This document shows positions 1-6,443 of a DNA stretch of 49,809 bases, piece by piece. Within the stretch, counting starts at the first letter, position 1. Every line of letters starts with the position of its first letter. The position numbers were made by a program, and so were the translations under genes. This stretch comes from an uncultured Gammaproteobacteria bacterium (GTDB lineage: Bacteria > Pseudomonadota > Gammaproteobacteria > GCA-002705445 > GCA-002716945): the NCBI GenBank assembly GCA_913048065.1, contig CAJWVG010000003.1:1-49809 (forward strand). Reading direction: 5' to 3'. Below the pieces are notes generated by a model. That model did not search any database. It saw nothing but the letters and a program-made list of their open reading frames with translations, and was not told the DNA's origin.

Positions 1-1600
1 CAACATTCTCAAGATCTTCCTCTAATATTCCTAGTAACTCTAATCCTCTTTTCAAGCCATTACCATTAGTCATATAGTTTGTACCAATACCACCAACATA
101 ATCATCCATTATCTTTTGTAGTCTTTGTAGACCTTGAATTGGAAGAATATAACTTGGAGAAACTGTACCAGCCGTAATTTCGTTACGACCAACTGTATAA
201 TTCTCAAGAGGTTTATAAATTATCTCTTTAAATTTTTCACATTGTTTTTCAGTCACAGATATACCATTGGCTTTTCCATCATTAATATATTGAACTGCTG
301 CTTTAGCACATAGTCTTCCTTCTGTGAATGATCCTGAAGAAAACGCATGTGCAGTTCCACCAGCTGCGTCTCCAGCTGCGAAAAGACCATCAATAGTCAT
401 CATTCTGTTATATCCCCAAAAGTATTCTGGAATACCTCCTGAGATATCTTCAGGACCACTGACCCATGCACCAGAGCATGTCGCATGTGAACCCATTACA
501 TACGGTTCAGATGTGGTTAATTCAGGGTTTTGGTATTTTGGATCAATATCTTGAGAAGCCCAAACAACTGCTTGTCCAACAGTCATACCTAAGAAATTTT
601 CCCATCCAATTACTTCAAGATGAGGGTCTTGAAATGCTTCCATTGTAACCATATGGATAGGTCCTCTTCCAGCTGCTGTTTCTTGTATGAATGCATGATT
701 TCGTAAACATGTTGGTGTTGGTATATGATCTATATATTCACCAACCATTTCTTTAGTTTGGTCATACCATGTTTTTTCATAGTTATCCCCATTTGCGTTT
801 TGTGTATATGTTTTAAGATGTAAGAAATAAGCCCCTACTGGTCCATAACCATCTTTAAATCTTGTTAAAACGATACGGTTTTCCATTTGCGTCATTTTGG
901 CGCCAACGGCTATTGGTAATGCATAGGCAGAACCGTTGCTCCACGGAGCGTACCAAGTACGTCCCATGCCTTCACCGACTGCACGTGGCTTAAATATATG
1001 TGATGCTCCACCAGCTGCACAAATTACAGCTTTTGCTCGAAAGACATAGTGGTCACCTGTACGCATGTTAAAGCCTGTAGCACCTCCAACACGGTTATCG
1101 TTTGTTTCATCCATTAACAAATGAGTTATCATAACCCTATTGTAAATTTTATCTGCAGATTTTTTTGCTGCTTCAGCAACAATTGGTTTGTAGCTTTCAC
1201 CGTGTATCATAATCTGCCACTTTCCTTCTCTCTGATACTGTCCCGTTTTTTCATTACGCATTAATGGTAATCCCCATTCTTCGAACATATGTACACATGA
1301 ATCTACATGGCGAGCCATATCATAAGCCAAATCCTCACGGACCATTCCCATTAAGTCATTTCTTGCATACCTTACATGGTCTTCGGGTTGATTCTCATCC
1401 CATTGCATACCCATATAACAGTTGATTGCATATAAACCTTGAGCAACTGCACCACTCCGATCTATATTTGCTTTTTCTGCACAAATGATTTTCATGTCAC
1501 GGCCCCAATACCTTGCTTCAAAAGTGGCACCAGTTCCAGCCATACCACCACCAACGACTAAGATGTCGCAATCTTCATAATGTGTTTTGTAATTAGCCAT
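1..1600 (-). CDS. aprA: Adenylylsulfate (APS) reductase alpha subunit, partial (runs off the window start)
   Basis: Reverse-strand frame open from the ATG at 1600 to base 1. Reads MANYKTHYEDCDILVVGGGMAGTGATFEARYWGRDMKII... (FAD-binding), then ...GRGPIHMVTMEAFQDPHLEVIGWENFLGMTVGQAVVWASQDIDP... and ...GLFAAGDAAGG.... Lies directly downstream of aprB (TAATG overlap). Confidence 0.95.
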   Translation of the reverse strand, partial: MANYKTHYEDCDILVVGGGMAGTGATFEARYWGRDMKIICAEKANIDRSGAVAQGLYAINCYMGMQWDENQPEDHVRYARNDLMGMVREDLAYDMARHVDSCVHMFEEWGLPLMRNEKTGQYQREGKWQIMIHGESYKPIVAEAAKKSADKIYNRVMITHLLMDETNDNRVGGATGFNMRTGDHYVFRAKAVICAAGGASHIFKPRAVGEGMGRTWYAPWSNGSAYALPIAVGAKMTQMENRIVLTRFKDGYGPVGAYFLHLKTYTQNANGDNYEKTWYDQTKEMVGEYIDHIPTPTCLRNHAFIQETAAGRGPIHMVTMEAFQDPHLEVIGWENFLGMTVGQAVVWASQDIDPKYQNPELTTSEPYVMGSHATCSGAWVSGPEDISGGIPEYFWGYNRMMTIDGLFAAGDAAGGTAHAFSSGSFTEGRLCAKAAVQYINDGKANGISVTEKQCEKFKEIIYKPLENYTVGRNEITAGTVSPSYILPIQGLQRLQKIMDDYVGGIGTNYMTNGNGLKRGLELLGILEEDLENV

Positions 1601-2091
1601 TAGTAGTATACTCCTTGTTTAAGTTTCCCAACTTTTTCCATTACAGGAAGACCTGTGTTTGATACTGGAACTTTGCCAGTTTTTAAATATGTTGGCTCGC
1701 CATATAATGTATTGTTTGCATGTGCTTCTTTGTTTGGGACATCTTTCTCTGCTAAATGAGGTATATGTTTGCCCCATGGCTTAGTTGTAATTGGTGATAC
1801 GAAGCTTTTCATATGACCATTTCTAAATTTAATTTTCCAACTTATAACACCTTTTTCTTCTTCTCTAAGAACACGTACTTTGTGTCCCATTGGTGCAAAA
1901 TCAGCATACCCGCGAACATCAATAGCATTTTGTGGGCAAGCTTTAACGCACGAATAGCATTCCCAACAAAAATTTGGCTCTATATTCACTGCGCGTCGAA
2001 TGAGTTTATCGATATGCATAATATCTGATGGACAGATATCGACACAGTGTCCGCATCCATCGCATCTGGTCATATATACAAAAGTTGACAT
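1600..2091 (-). CDS. aprB: APS reductase beta subunit, two [4Fe-4S] ferredoxin
   Basis: MSTFVYMTRCDGCGHCVDICPSDIMHID...CWECYSCVKACPQNAIDVRGYADFAPMG; adjacent to aprA. Confidence 0.96.
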   Translation of the reverse strand: MSTFVYMTRCDGCGHCVDICPSDIMHIDKLIRRAVNIEPNFCWECYSCVKACPQNAIDVRGYADFAPMGHKVRVLREEEKGVISWKIKFRNGHMKSFVSPITTKPWGKHIPHLAEKDVPNKEAHANNTLYGEPTYLKTGKVPVSNTGLPVMEKVGKLKQGVYY

Positions 2092-2122: not shown

Positions 2123-2905
2123 TTAATAGTTTTGTGGCTCAGAACGTTTAATACCCAGACCATATTGTTTTGGTAAATCTGCTGGTTCAGGTAGGTCATC
2201 TCTTGATCCGTCTTCTTCAGCCAAGTGTTTTTGAATTGCAGCTCCTGGTTTATAAAACATATGGGCAAATTTAGACCAGTATACTCCACCGAATAGGACT
2301 ACATTAGAGATAACAAACAAGACGAAAAATAGAGTTGCTAAACCAATAGAATTTGATGCTTGAAAGAAAGACCATAATAAACCAAAAGTTGAAGTTGCCA
2401 CCAATGAAAGGACGAATAAGTCAGCAAAAACAATTCTGCTCCAACCATTTCCTTCCGCTCTTACGTCTACTCTTTGTACAAACCAAAACCAGTAACCACC
2501 TACACATGTCATTATTGCACCAACATGCCATAACAAAGGATAAAAAGTTGATGTAGATGCTGTGTTGAAAATCATCACTGCAGATGCTATCCAAAAAAAG
2601 ATGGTTCCATACATCCCTAATAAATGTGTAATTCTTCTTGTTACACCACAGAATTCTGCTGAAGTTGCAACATCATGAGCTAGTGTTTTTACTATGATTG
2701 AAACTTTTTTACCGGTTGCTACAGATTTGGTAGCTGACAGTTTAGCTTTTTTTGCATTCTCAAAAAAAAACTTAACATTCTTCTTATGCATCATATCCAG
2801 AAGAACGCCACCGATGGTAAATATAACCATGAGGATTAAGAATCCTTGTAATGCATAAGATGGTATATTCAGGACGTTTTCAGCAAATGGGTTAGTTGTT
2901 AACAT
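2123..2905 (-). CDS. aprM: Membrane protein associated with APS reductase (AprM-like)
   Basis: Polytopic membrane protein of 260 aa immediately upstream of aprBA, with the SD-like GGAGAAATTATG. Position and topology match AprM. Confidence 0.82.
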   Translation of the reverse strand: MLTTNPFAENVLNIPSYALQGFLILMVIFTIGGVLLDMMHKKNVKFFFENAKKAKLSATKSVATGKKVSIIVKTLAHDVATSAEFCGVTRRITHLLGMYGTIFFWIASAVMIFNTASTSTFYPLLWHVGAIMTCVGGYWFWFVQRVDVRAEGNGWSRIVFADLFVLSLVATSTFGLLWSFFQASNSIGLATLFFVLFVISNVVLFGGVYWSKFAHMFYKPGAAIQKHLAEEDGSRDDLPEPADLPKQYGLGIKRSEPQNY

Positions 2906-3181: not shown

Positions 3182-4375
3182 CTAAAGGGATTGATAGTAC
3201 TTCATTAGTATTTCTGCGACTTCTTTTCTGGCAAATTCTGGAGGTAGCTCTTCTCCATTTGACAGCATTTCTCTAACTTTTGTTCCTGACAGTAATACAA
3301 AATCATCTTTGCTATGATCATCCACATCTCGCATCATGACAACTTCTTTTAATTTCTTTGAATATGCAGTGTGATCAGCAGAAAATATTTTTATTTTTAG
3401 TGAATTCTTGACTATATCTTGATTAAACATTTCTTGTGCCTCAAATGGGCCATAGTAATCCCCTACACCAGCATGATCTCGTCCAACTATGAGGTGAGAA
3501 CATCCGCAATTCTGACGAAATACAGCATGCAAGAGGGCTTCTCTTGGTCCTGCATAAAGCATATCAAACCCAAAACCTGAAATTATAACTGTATTTTCAG
3601 GAAAATAGAGCTCAACCATTTTTTCTATTGCTTCATTCCTAACATCACCAGGTATGTCACCATCTTTAAGTTTACCCAGAGTCATGTGTATTAGAACTCC
3701 ATCTGCTTTTAATCTTTCCAAAGCCATTTTACATAGTTCTTCATGGGCTCTATGCATAGGATTTCTGGTTTGAAATGCAACAGTAGTAGACCATCCTGCT
3801 TTATTAAGCATTTCCCTAATTTCGGGAGCAGTGGCAAAAGTTCCAGGAAAGTCTTTTGGAAAATAACTATAGTTTAAAACTTTAATTGGCCCAGAAACAA
3901 GTATATTACCTAGATTTAAAAAATTTGAAACGCCAGGATGCTTATTGTCTGTAGTACCAAAAATTTTCTCTGCTAAATTCAACATTTCACTATCAGTTAG
4001 GACTTCAATTGACTCTATAACTTGAGTGGCCATAACTGGTGTACCATCAACATTTGGGTCCAATAATGCTATTTCATCACTCTCTTTAATAGACCCTATA
4101 TCCGTAGTTAAGTTAATTATTGGTACCGGCCAAAATAATCCGTCAGTTGTAACCATATTGTTAGCAACACTAATTGCGTCTTTTTTATTCATGAAACCAT
4201 TTAGTGGTGTGAAATAACCAGCCCCTAACATAACAGTATTTGCTGCAGCTGCAGAATTAAGCAATAGTTGTGACAAGCTTGTAGACTGCTCCAAAATGGC
4301 ATCTCTTTCAGAAGAATCGTTGATAAATAAGGGTTTTAGGGTTTCAGATGCGTGTGGGGCTATCAAATTTTTCAT
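3182..4375 (-). CDS. sat: Sulfate adenylyltransferase (dissimilatory ATP sulfurylase)
   Basis: Motifs QTRNPMHRAHEELCK and VGRDHAGVGDYYGPFEAQ; 397 aa; next to aprMBA. Confidence 0.96.
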   Translation of the reverse strand: MKNLIAPHASETLKPLFINDSSERDAILEQSTSLSQLLLNSAAAANTVMLGAGYFTPLNGFMNKKDAISVANNMVTTDGLFWPVPIINLTTDIGSIKESDEIALLDPNVDGTPVMATQVIESIEVLTDSEMLNLAEKIFGTTDNKHPGVSNFLNLGNILVSGPIKVLNYSYFPKDFPGTFATAPEIREMLNKAGWSTTVAFQTRNPMHRAHEELCKMALERLKADGVLIHMTLGKLKDGDIPGDVRNEAIEKMVELYFPENTVIISGFGFDMLYAGPREALLHAVFRQNCGCSHLIVGRDHAGVGDYYGPFEAQEMFNQDIVKNSLKIKIFSADHTAYSKKLKEVVMMRDVDDHSKDDFVLLSGTKVREMLSNGEELPPEFARKEVAEILMKYYQSL

Positions 4376-4407
4376 AAAATATCCATAAATATATAATTAA
4401 ATTCTCA

Positions 4408-4436
4408 TTGATGAACGACAAGACTAATACTATAAT
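4408..4436 (+). promoter_or_regulatory. Putative sigma-70 promoter for the 4536 CDS (TTGATG-N17-TATAAT)
   Basis: TTGATG at 4408-4413, 17-nt spacer, TATAAT at 4431-4436, in the 160-bp divergent intergenic region between sat and the 4536 CDS. Confidence 0.5.
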
Positions 4437-4535
4437 CAACGTTGCTTAAAAAATCAAAGGACTTTTAAGTTAAACATATTGGAAATGCAGCATTAGATTT
4501 GCGCAGATAAACTAAGAAAGAGGAATATGTAAATT

Positions 4536-6443
4536 ATGGAAAAAATACTAGAAGTAAGAGATGGGTGTACAACCCCATTACAACTACTAAAAAGTAAGGC
4601 TTTTGCACAATACTTGGATATTTACAAAAAGCAGTTCATTAAAGAATTAAAAAATCGTGAGAATACTGATCTTAAAGATGATGTTCTCCATAAAATTGAG
4701 TACATAGAGGGTATAGATGCAAACACCTATATTTCAATTATAGAGGGTGAAACTCCTTTCTCTGGAGATGAACTTAGAGATCATCGTGATTCAGTTAAAT
4801 TTATTGATGGAGCATTTCATCATTACAGAACAAAATCATATACTAGATTAGTAAGATTACATAATGAAGTTCTTGAAGAAGGCACAGATGCTGAAATGAT
4901 AAAAGATAAAGTGTCTCTTAAAGCTGATAAACTTTCTGAGCTCATCGTAGAAACAAGAAGAATTCTGCTTATCAGAGCTGGTCTTGGTGATGGAGTAAGA
5001 AGAACAAAAGGATTAGAATGTCATCCAAACGTTGCGGTTGGTGAAATATCGGGTCATTTTGTAAATCTACCTGGTGACTATTCAAATTTAAATCAGGTTC
5101 CAATGACAACGGCTGCAGATATGAGGACCGGAGTCTACTATACAACTCATGCAAATAAGAGGGCTTTTCCTTTTTTTGCTTTAGATCACAACCCGGTTAA
5201 AAATGACAAATTTATTCCAGAAGACTATGTCGCAATACCTTTTGAAATTGGTAAATGGAATATACTTTGCTATATTCATAAAACTAGGGGGTACATAGAA
5301 CTTGAACCCGGTCTGTTGAACTTATTCCCATTCTCTAAAGTAGAGAATATTACGAAAAAACAACCCGATGGTATTTTTGTTTTAGGTTGTCCAAATTCTA
5401 ATATGGATGATTTAGGTTACTTTCATGACAAGGAAAATAATATACTCGTTGGATTGATACCAGGTCTGGATGAATGTCAATACTTTGGGTATGGAAAAAA
5501 ACCAATGCTAACACTGCATAATGTTTTGTGTATTCTTAATGGAGATTTACCTCTTCATTGTGGTGCAACAAGATATGTTGTCAGATTTGATGAAAAAACA
5601 AATGAGCCATATATTTTTGACTCATTCATCAAAGCAGATGATATGGGTAGAGCTACATTGGAAAATGAAGTTCCAATGTTTTATGGGACAGAAACAGGCG
5701 CTTTTGCATGTTTGGATGGATTCAGTGAACACGCTAAAATGCAAATGGAAGGTCGTGAAATCGGCTATAACAAGCATTCTGGAACTAATGCAAGACAAAT
5801 TGTACCAGTTACTGAATACTCTGAGATATCTACAGGGTCTGAACTTGATATACTCCTATATCTGAATAATTATGAGTTAATGAAGCCAGGCGTTTCATGT
5901 ATGAAAACAGATATTACTCCAGATGAGGCGTTGGAAAGCTTTAGGAGTGGTGCAAGAGTTGCTGCAGGAAGTACACAAACACACCGTGGAGATGTGGAAA
6001 TTAGTTACTGGGCAAACCCATTTCCTTTACTAAAAGATAAAGAATGGAAAGTATTGCCTCAGCATGCTGACATATGTGAAACATTTGAAAAAATCGAAGA
6101 GAGATTCTGGAATAATTTCAAAGCACGCGCACAAAAAGGTAAAATGAAAATAGGACTAGCTCATAGCATGTTAATGGCTGGTGTCTACAAGGAAAGTAGT
6201 GATGATTTACTAAAGGAATGTGGTTTTGAAGACAGGGTTATGGTTGAGCATGAAGGACCAGAACGCGCAGCTCATGATATGATTGAGTTAATCAAAAATA
6301 CTGCAGTAGAAAAACGTAAAGCCATTGGCGATAAGAGCCTGAAAGAAGTTGATGTCACTGTTGCAACTATTGGTGATAGCCGAACTGGTAAATCAGAAAT
6401 GGCAGAGAAAATGGAAGGTGTATTAAATATGAGTCTTATATAA
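4536..6443 (+). CDS. PEP carboxykinase / HPr-kinase-fold-like protein of unknown function with a C-terminal Walker A motif
   Basis: 635 aa; SD-like GAGGAA upstream. PLHCGATRYVV, FIKADDMGRATL, GTETGAFACLDGF, NARQIVPVTEYSEI...DILLYLNNYE, FRSGARVAAGSTQTHRGDVEISYWANPFPL match PEPCK segments in order. GDSRTGKSE lies at residues 613-621 of 635. Confidence 0.7.
   Translation: MEKILEVRDGCTTPLQLLKSKAFAQYLDIYKKQFIKELKNRENTDLKDDVLHKIEYIEGIDANTYISIIEGETPFSGDELRDHRDSVKFIDGAFHHYRTKSYTRLVRLHNEVLEEGTDAEMIKDKVSLKADKLSELIVETRRILLIRAGLGDGVRRTKGLECHPNVAVGEISGHFVNLPGDYSNLNQVPMTTAADMRTGVYYTTHANKRAFPFFALDHNPVKNDKFIPEDYVAIPFEIGKWNILCYIHKTRGYIELEPGLLNLFPFSKVENITKKQPDGIFVLGCPNSNMDDLGYFHDKENNILVGLIPGLDECQYFGYGKKPMLTLHNVLCILNGDLPLHCGATRYVVRFDEKTNEPYIFDSFIKADDMGRATLENEVPMFYGTETGAFACLDGFSEHAKMQMEGREIGYNKHSGTNARQIVPVTEYSEISTGSELDILLYLNNYELMKPGVSCMKTDITPDEALESFRSGARVAAGSTQTHRGDVEISYWANPFPLLKDKEWKVLPQHADICETFEKIEERFWNNFKARAQKGKMKIGLAHSMLMAGVYKESSDDLLKECGFEDRVMVEHEGPERAAHDMIELIKNTAVEKRKAIGDKSLKEVDVTVATIGDSRTGKSEMAEKMEGVLNMSLI

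Follow-up and report, generated by a model that had tools for sequence, protein, structure and literature searches.

The gene at positions 4536..6443 on the plus strand most probably encodes a divergent protein of the PEP carboxykinase (PEPCK) superfamily whose P-loop cassette, ~30 residues long, has been relocated to the C terminus. The gene, delimited from its open frame and its homologs, lies in the window, by which we mean the whole stretch of DNA analyzed: 49,809 nucleotides of contig CAJWVG010000003.1 (assembly GCA_913048065.1) from an uncultured gammaproteobacterium. Independent sequence comparisons give the relocation good support, and structure prediction is consistent with it. A moved strand/P-loop/helix, alongside a homolog in which the old order persists, would offer a direct and testable case of a catalytic subelement being relocated within an enzyme. 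The same reading offers a plausible identity for an unannotated but conserved gene, mostly of marine sulfur oxidizers, that stands beside sat-aprMBA, in organisms whose carbon and PPi economy is in question.

The reading frame is uninterrupted, opens with ATG, and specifies 635 aa. All of the motifs that a first-pass annotation had read from the DNA were present, in the order and at the positions given there. The kinase-2 motif FIKADDMGR (D368, D369; 5625..5651, plus strand), which aligned with the DDMG of the homolog P0002 described below, includes K366-A367-D368-D369-M370-G371, with A367 falling at 5634. The 635-aa frame has no Walker A ahead of ADDMG, as had been claimed. Its lone Walker A, GDSRTGKSE, occupies residues 613-621 (6372-6398) and starts 23 residues from the C terminus, which bears out the claim that the P-loop comes after kinase-2 (residues 367-371).

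Around these motifs, the protein can be divided into several parts, all encoded on the plus strand. Residues 1-163 (4536..5024) form an N-terminal region that was helical in the full-length AlphaFold2 model; it aligned only weakly to P0002, and no close match to it was found. Residues 164-350 (5025..5585), delimited by PEPCK alignment and the core model, comprise a PEPCK N-domain-like part and the first half of the catalytic core, and they hold N207, R209, Y316, K321-K322, H341, and C342, which were invariant in 44 sequences. Next comes what insertion-site scans mark as a vacated site, residues 351-359 (FDEKTNEPY; 5586..5612), the place of the P-loop cassette in ordinary-order relatives. Residues 381-504 (5676..6047) make up the second half of the core, which aligned to P0002 and, from ~415, also to ATP-PEPCK; it contains, in order, GTETGAFACLDGFS, NARQIVPV (R420), FRSGARVAAGSTQTHRG, and SYWANPFPLL. 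The putative relocated cassette, residues 603-635 (6342..6440), was delimited by the invariant motif, the strand and helix of the model, and the restoration scans, and it is made up of the strand EVDVTVATI, the P-loop GDSRTGKSE, and the helix MAEKMEGVLNMSLI.

The gene stands head-to-head with sat, aprM, aprB, and a truncated aprA, all on the minus strand. The divergently transcribed neighbor is sat (3182..4375), encoding ATP sulfurylase (NCBIfam TIGR00339, E=2e-114). It is accompanied by aprM (2123..2905), whose name is taken from its place in the cluster, by aprB (1600..2091; TIGR02060), and by aprA (1..1600; TIGR02061 at G000:C3:5-1567), which is cut off by the window edge. The sequence between sat and the gene spans 160 bp (4376..4535) and carried three sigma-70-like matches compared to 1.3 expected, a weak signal.

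We examined the conservation of the terminal P-loop across homologs. GDSRTGKSE was identical in 44 distinct genes, the window gene and 43 distinct homologs with identity down to about 53%, a set that had been chosen on the presence of the motif. The first-pass annotation had staked its reading on the P-loop being kept among homologs, and no full-length homolog lacked it: the motif was carried by every one recovered from three genome searches, with one unread residue within it in L010. In all 43 homologs it was terminal, lying 23-32 residues from the stop, and exactly one Walker A was present in 42/43; in L018 the C-terminal tail contains another match, which is due to chance. The codons behind GDSRTGKSE vary freely at synonymous positions across the 44 genes while the peptide is invariant, indicating purifying selection on the protein sequence and not on the DNA. 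The terminal P-loop is thus confirmed as a real and conserved feature, far beyond chance. Recent decay is suggested in one sulfur-oxidizer genus, where G044 (L056) has the gene broken into two frames, the motif lying in the second piece, and G185 (L057/L039) retains only a remnant of 61 residues that includes a stop codon.

The native protein matched no named Pfam or NCBIfam family. Scans of PHROGs with the protein, and of PDB sequences with both the protein and a 24-row profile, returned nothing meaningful, and the gathering scores of PF01293 and PF00821 were not reached; the best native family member against Pfam PEPCK_ATP was L048, with an E value of 0.28. For the HPr kinase (HprK) family, there was no Pfam match with either the native or the rearranged sequence and no NCBIfam match with the native one, and the RsgA family gave neither a Pfam nor an NCBIfam match with the native protein. 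No account of a permuted PEPCK turned up in a search of the open-access literature.

A relative with the ordinary order was found by tblastn of plasmids. This protein, P0002 (AYP99509.1; L. fermentum plasmid CP033373), is 569 aa in length, is annotated as PEPCK, and showed 27.5-28% identity to the window protein over ~370 residues (tblastn E=1e-29). Its P-loop, GDSGAGKSE, has the usual location and falls precisely where the window protein shows a gap: RIKFTNGKDKTVVFFGDSGAGKSESLEALQEIADEQIVEMETIFDDMG in P0002 corresponds to VVRFDEKTNEPYIFDSFIKADDMG in the window protein, with the strand/P-loop/helix present in the former and missing from the latter. Between the terminal cassette and the internal P-loop of P0002, 11/30 positions were identical. 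The family profile aligned to P0002 over 466 columns (residues 13-504), with the region ahead of kinase-2 colinear in the two, and P0002 itself scored 2.1e-5 and 23.9 bits against Pfam PEPCK_ATP, across the P-loop and just under the cutoff of 26.5. The two proteins are homologous over most of the length of P0002 and share the GTETGAF, NAR, and ANPF motifs as well as a GDSxxGKSE-type P-loop; they differ in that P0002 has this loop in the ordinary place, is without the C-terminal cassette, and is the shorter of the two. A homolog with its P-loop before ADD had been named in the first-pass annotation as evidence that would tell against the reading. One exists, but it supports relocation, because its cassette fits the gap in the window protein. 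Plasmid scans gave P0002 alone, and no further canonical-order close relatives were found; since the two family profiles used for the genome searches described below score canonical-order P0002 at 138-171 bits, equally close relatives of this kind would have shown up in those genomes. The P0002 gene is located at L058:5602-7311, in a 252-kb plasmid record, and its product also has a weak DUF4914 match.

A displaced P-loop, if put back, should regain similarity at one place only, and we moved the cassette through the protein on this logic. Removing the cassette left the HMM score against P0002 almost unchanged (171.3 bits, compared to 171.5 for the native sequence), and placing it after residue 351 gave the maximum, 199.7 bits; insertion at the neighboring positions 344-366 gave 185-198 bits and insertion elsewhere 143-179 bits. 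In HHalign against 19 ATP-PEPCKs, the native order reached a probability of 11.6% and a score of 34.5; moving the cassette to follow residue 348 raised these to 96% and 77.3. Values were intermediate at 336-390, and insertion at ≤320 or ≥450 brought no gain. The cassette thus restored the PEPCK match only at about residue 336-390, and best at 344-354. In Pfam searches, PEPCK_ATP was the only hit for the rearranged window protein, P0001 (E=0.036, 13.2 bits; cutoff 26.5) and the only or best match for other rearranged sequences (L055, E=0.0056; consensus, E=0.19), all still below the gathering cutoff, and it was absent for native P0001, for the native consensus, and for a control consensus with the cassette mis-inserted at residue 250. 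As further controls, eight unrelated Walker A segments placed at the same site gave HHalign scores of 35-64 and shuffled cassettes scored at most 49.5; the genuine cassette, entered as one sequence, scored 72.6. Because unrelated P-loops also score up to 64, the gain is partly the generic effect of a P-loop filling an empty site and partly specific.

Structure prediction pointed in the same direction. The full-length AlphaFold2 model, built with 16 close sequences, was poor (mean pLDDT 58, pTM 0.54); its top three PDB matches were E. coli PEPCK. A crop of residues 164-635 reached pTM 0.75 and a mean pLDDT of 68, with 52-59 in the P-loop block, and in it a strand (604-612) and a helix (616-634) flank the terminal P-loop. 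The 25 best PDB matches of this moderate-confidence crop model, obtained by the structure prediction and search that the first-pass annotation had recommended, were all PEPCK (probability 0.77-1.00, unrelated matches at most 0.13); TM-scores to PEPCK were low, at 0.15-0.31. The PEPCK fold, first proposed from motifs, is supported by the model and agrees with the sequence profiles, the canonical-order homolog P0002, and the structure search alike.

Taken together, these data show the relation to PEPCK, the vacated site, and the displaced cassette, and they suggest the following rearrangement. In the ancestral state, the strand/P-loop/helix cassette would have been flanked by the metal-binding histidine on one side and the kinase-2 aspartates on the other, as in every ordinary relative seen. 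A segment of ~30 residues would then have been excised and would now form the extreme C terminus, folding back to supply the final strand of that central sheet. GDSRTGKSE would thereby face K322/H341/D368-D369 and yield a working kinase site from a rewired chain. We infer that GDSRTGKSE contacts ADDMG, and we consider it quite likely that the cassette closes the active site in cis. The terminal P-loop could instead complete the site of a neighboring subunit, which would make the protein an obligate oligomer with the same PEPCK-like activity. A terminal cassette is able to swap in this manner, and members of the HprK family are oligomeric; however, no result favors trans over cis, and we regard a domain swap as unlikely.

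We next consider the residues that such a site would use. Alignment with E. coli PckA placed Y316, K321/K322, H341, and R420 on Y207, K212/K213, H232, and R333. HHalign against the 19 ATP-PEPCKs left the kinase-2 motif unaligned, and D368/D369 were equated with PEPCK D268/D269 by eye, from LIGDDEHGW, and through P0002. We take the PEPCK metal ligands to be Lys213, His232, and Asp269 (E. coli numbering), and the substrate residues are presumably Arg65, Tyr207, and Arg333. The metal-ligand positions are all kept in the window protein, K322 and H341 by alignment and D369 by eye and via P0002. For the substrate residues, Y316 and R420 match their counterparts in the alignment and do not vary, and R209 was assigned as the Arg65 counterpart by eye only. 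K321, K322, H341, D368, R420, R209, and the whole P-loop were invariant in 44/44 sequences, and D369 was present in 43/44, with one unread (X). No alignment with the window protein was obtained for the part of PEPCK that comprises the last helix and the adenine pocket. The invariance of the metal and substrate positions argues for an active phosphotransferase, and we expect, with good though not full confidence, that the protein is one.

The opposite reading would make the protein a pseudoenzyme or regulator that lost its internal P-loop, the C-terminal one being an independent tail that senses nucleotides and has no relation to the former active site. That the P-loop is of the HprK type (GDSxxGKSE) and not the PEPCK type (GLSGTGKT) would suit this reading, but the GDSxxGKSE type also occurs internally in L. 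fermentum P0002. Likewise, the P-loop lies on a separate terminal segment where model confidence is low, and CBS-domain genes adjoin the gene in some lineages; yet unrelated P-loops fit the vacated site less well than the cassette does, and metal and substrate positions that are all invariant are unexpected for a dead core. We therefore think it rather improbable that the protein is a pseudoenzyme.

Returning to an active enzyme with a relocated cassette, the window protein resembles ATP-PEPCK (PF01293, E. coli PckA) in its fold, in the order YxGxxxKK...MHC...(kinase-2 DD)...NTR...HFxSGxxAxxAGT, and in keeping the catalytic Lys, His, Asp, and Arg positions. It differs in having its P-loop at the C terminus, whereas that of PckA lies between His232 and Asp268, in the P-loop itself (GDSRTGKSE versus GLSGTGKT), in an extra N-terminal helical region, and in falling below Pfam detection. 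The P-loop was ahead of kinase-2 in all PEPCKs examined, and we know of no exception in the whole PEPCK/HprK superfamily. The label PEPCK needs qualification, because the placement of the P-loop is one of the defining features and, when checked, differed from that of a PEPCK; the protein would nonetheless work like a PEPCK-fold kinase. HPr kinase/phosphorylase (PF07475) has a GDSxxGKSE-type P-loop and an ADD kinase-2 motif, as does the window protein, but it is about half as long, is without the PEPCK N-domain, and gave no Pfam match. The most likely function, at about even odds, is that the protein interconverts PEP and oxaloacetate or carries out a closely similar carboxylate/enol phosphoryl transfer, with ATP, GTP, and PPi as candidate donors. 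Its role is probably in central carbon metabolism and not in the Sat/Apr reaction itself.

The distribution of the gene bears on this role. A scan of 84,980 species genomes yielded 19 full-length homologs and one fragment. Among 369 gammaproteobacterial genomes, matches were found in 19, spanning 12 genera and including the split G044 and the remnant G185, while a Pseudomonadota-wide draw of 399 genomes held no carrier except the source genome, and IMG/VR and phage scans returned no relatives. aprA was present in 109/369 gammaproteobacterial genomes and in 18/19 gene carriers (Fisher p=1.5e-9); counted by genus, co-occurrence was 11/12 versus 68/259 (p=7e-6, not corrected for phylogeny). The lone carrier without aprA, G099, is 73% complete. 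Only 18/109 aprA genomes carry the gene.

The head-to-head sat-aprMBA arrangement holds throughout the close clade (L001-L015, L019). Outside it, the neighbors were valS-pepA-lptFG, bioA with an RND pump, CBS-domain genes, polymerase IV, or cas2. The gene was also found in 14/32 genomes of a Rickettsiales-labeled order (L016-L018, L089-L102), and in the tree, 13 Rickettsiales-labeled sequences form one clade nested in the close clade, sister to L014, a topology that suggests one horizontal transfer with retention of function. aprA and sat were absent from the three Rickettsiales-labeled carrier genomes tested, all drafts. The genome-neighborhood survey proposed in the first-pass annotation thus found sat/apr linkage throughout the close clade but different neighbors in other lineages, including these three genomes without either gene. 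The sulfur-oxidation role suggested there stands in part: the presence of aprA in nearly all gammaproteobacterial carriers speaks for it, and the confinement of sat-apr adjacency to the close clade speaks against it. With such confinement and three carriers devoid of aprA and sat, the sulfur link is partial. The gene is typical of sulfur oxidizers but apparently has no need for Sat or Apr. Plain membership in a sat-apr operon was rejected as a functional explanation, as the linkage is lost beyond the close clade. In two separate lineages, the gene is immediately followed by a small gene with a CBS domain (L016, L017, L018, L043, and L045), and a DASS-type anion symporter follows further downstream in L016 and L017; this arrangement is weakly in line with C4-dicarboxylate metabolism.

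We also weighed a PPi-linked PEP/oxaloacetate enzyme that would supply or balance pyrophosphate for ATP sulfurylase in sulfur oxidation. The head-to-head position with sat in the close clade and the aprA co-occurrence would accord with such a function, as would the consumption of PPi by Sat in the oxidative direction (PMC3779200). However, none of the other lineages examined showed the gene next to sat, the Rickettsiales-labeled carriers tested are without aprA and sat, most aprA genomes do without the gene, and the known PPi-PEPCKs (EC 4.1.1.38) are reported to be unrelated to ATP/GTP PEPCK (review, PMC8100219). We consider this function doubtful. A related and similarly speculative idea is that the transposed cassette might free the enzyme from the usual adenine-site geometry, so that it would run on pyrophosphate or another donor and couple PEP/oxaloacetate exchange to the PPi demand of Sat in sulfur oxidizers.

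Replacement of an ordinary PEPCK by the gene is possible. PF01293 or PF00821 was found in only 2/19 carriers. PF01293 occurred in 17/91 aprA genomes without the gene versus 1/18 with it (p=0.30), and it was absent from 32/32 genomes of the Rickettsiales-labeled order, whether the gene was present or not. Since PF01293 is nearly as rare in aprA noncarriers, mutual exclusion with PEPCK is unsupported.

Lastly, the RsgA/YjeQ permuted P-loop GTPases resemble the window protein in that the P-loop is displaced relative to another nucleotide-site motif, but they belong to another fold class, and whole motif blocks rotate there, whereas one short cassette appears to have moved here. The first-pass term "circularly permuted" had to be given up, as residues 1-351 keep their ancestral place before kinase-2 and only the ~30-residue cassette has moved, a pattern better described as segment relocation. 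A true circular permutation of the kinase domain would likewise put the P-loop after kinase-2, but it is contradicted by the colinear alignment of the upstream part with P0002 (residues 13-504) and with PEPCK (from 315) and is extremely unlikely. In the neighboring cluster, the product of aprM (2123-2905) gave a weak match to the QmoC model (3.3e-7), which may hint at a shared origin of the two electron-transfer partners of Apr.
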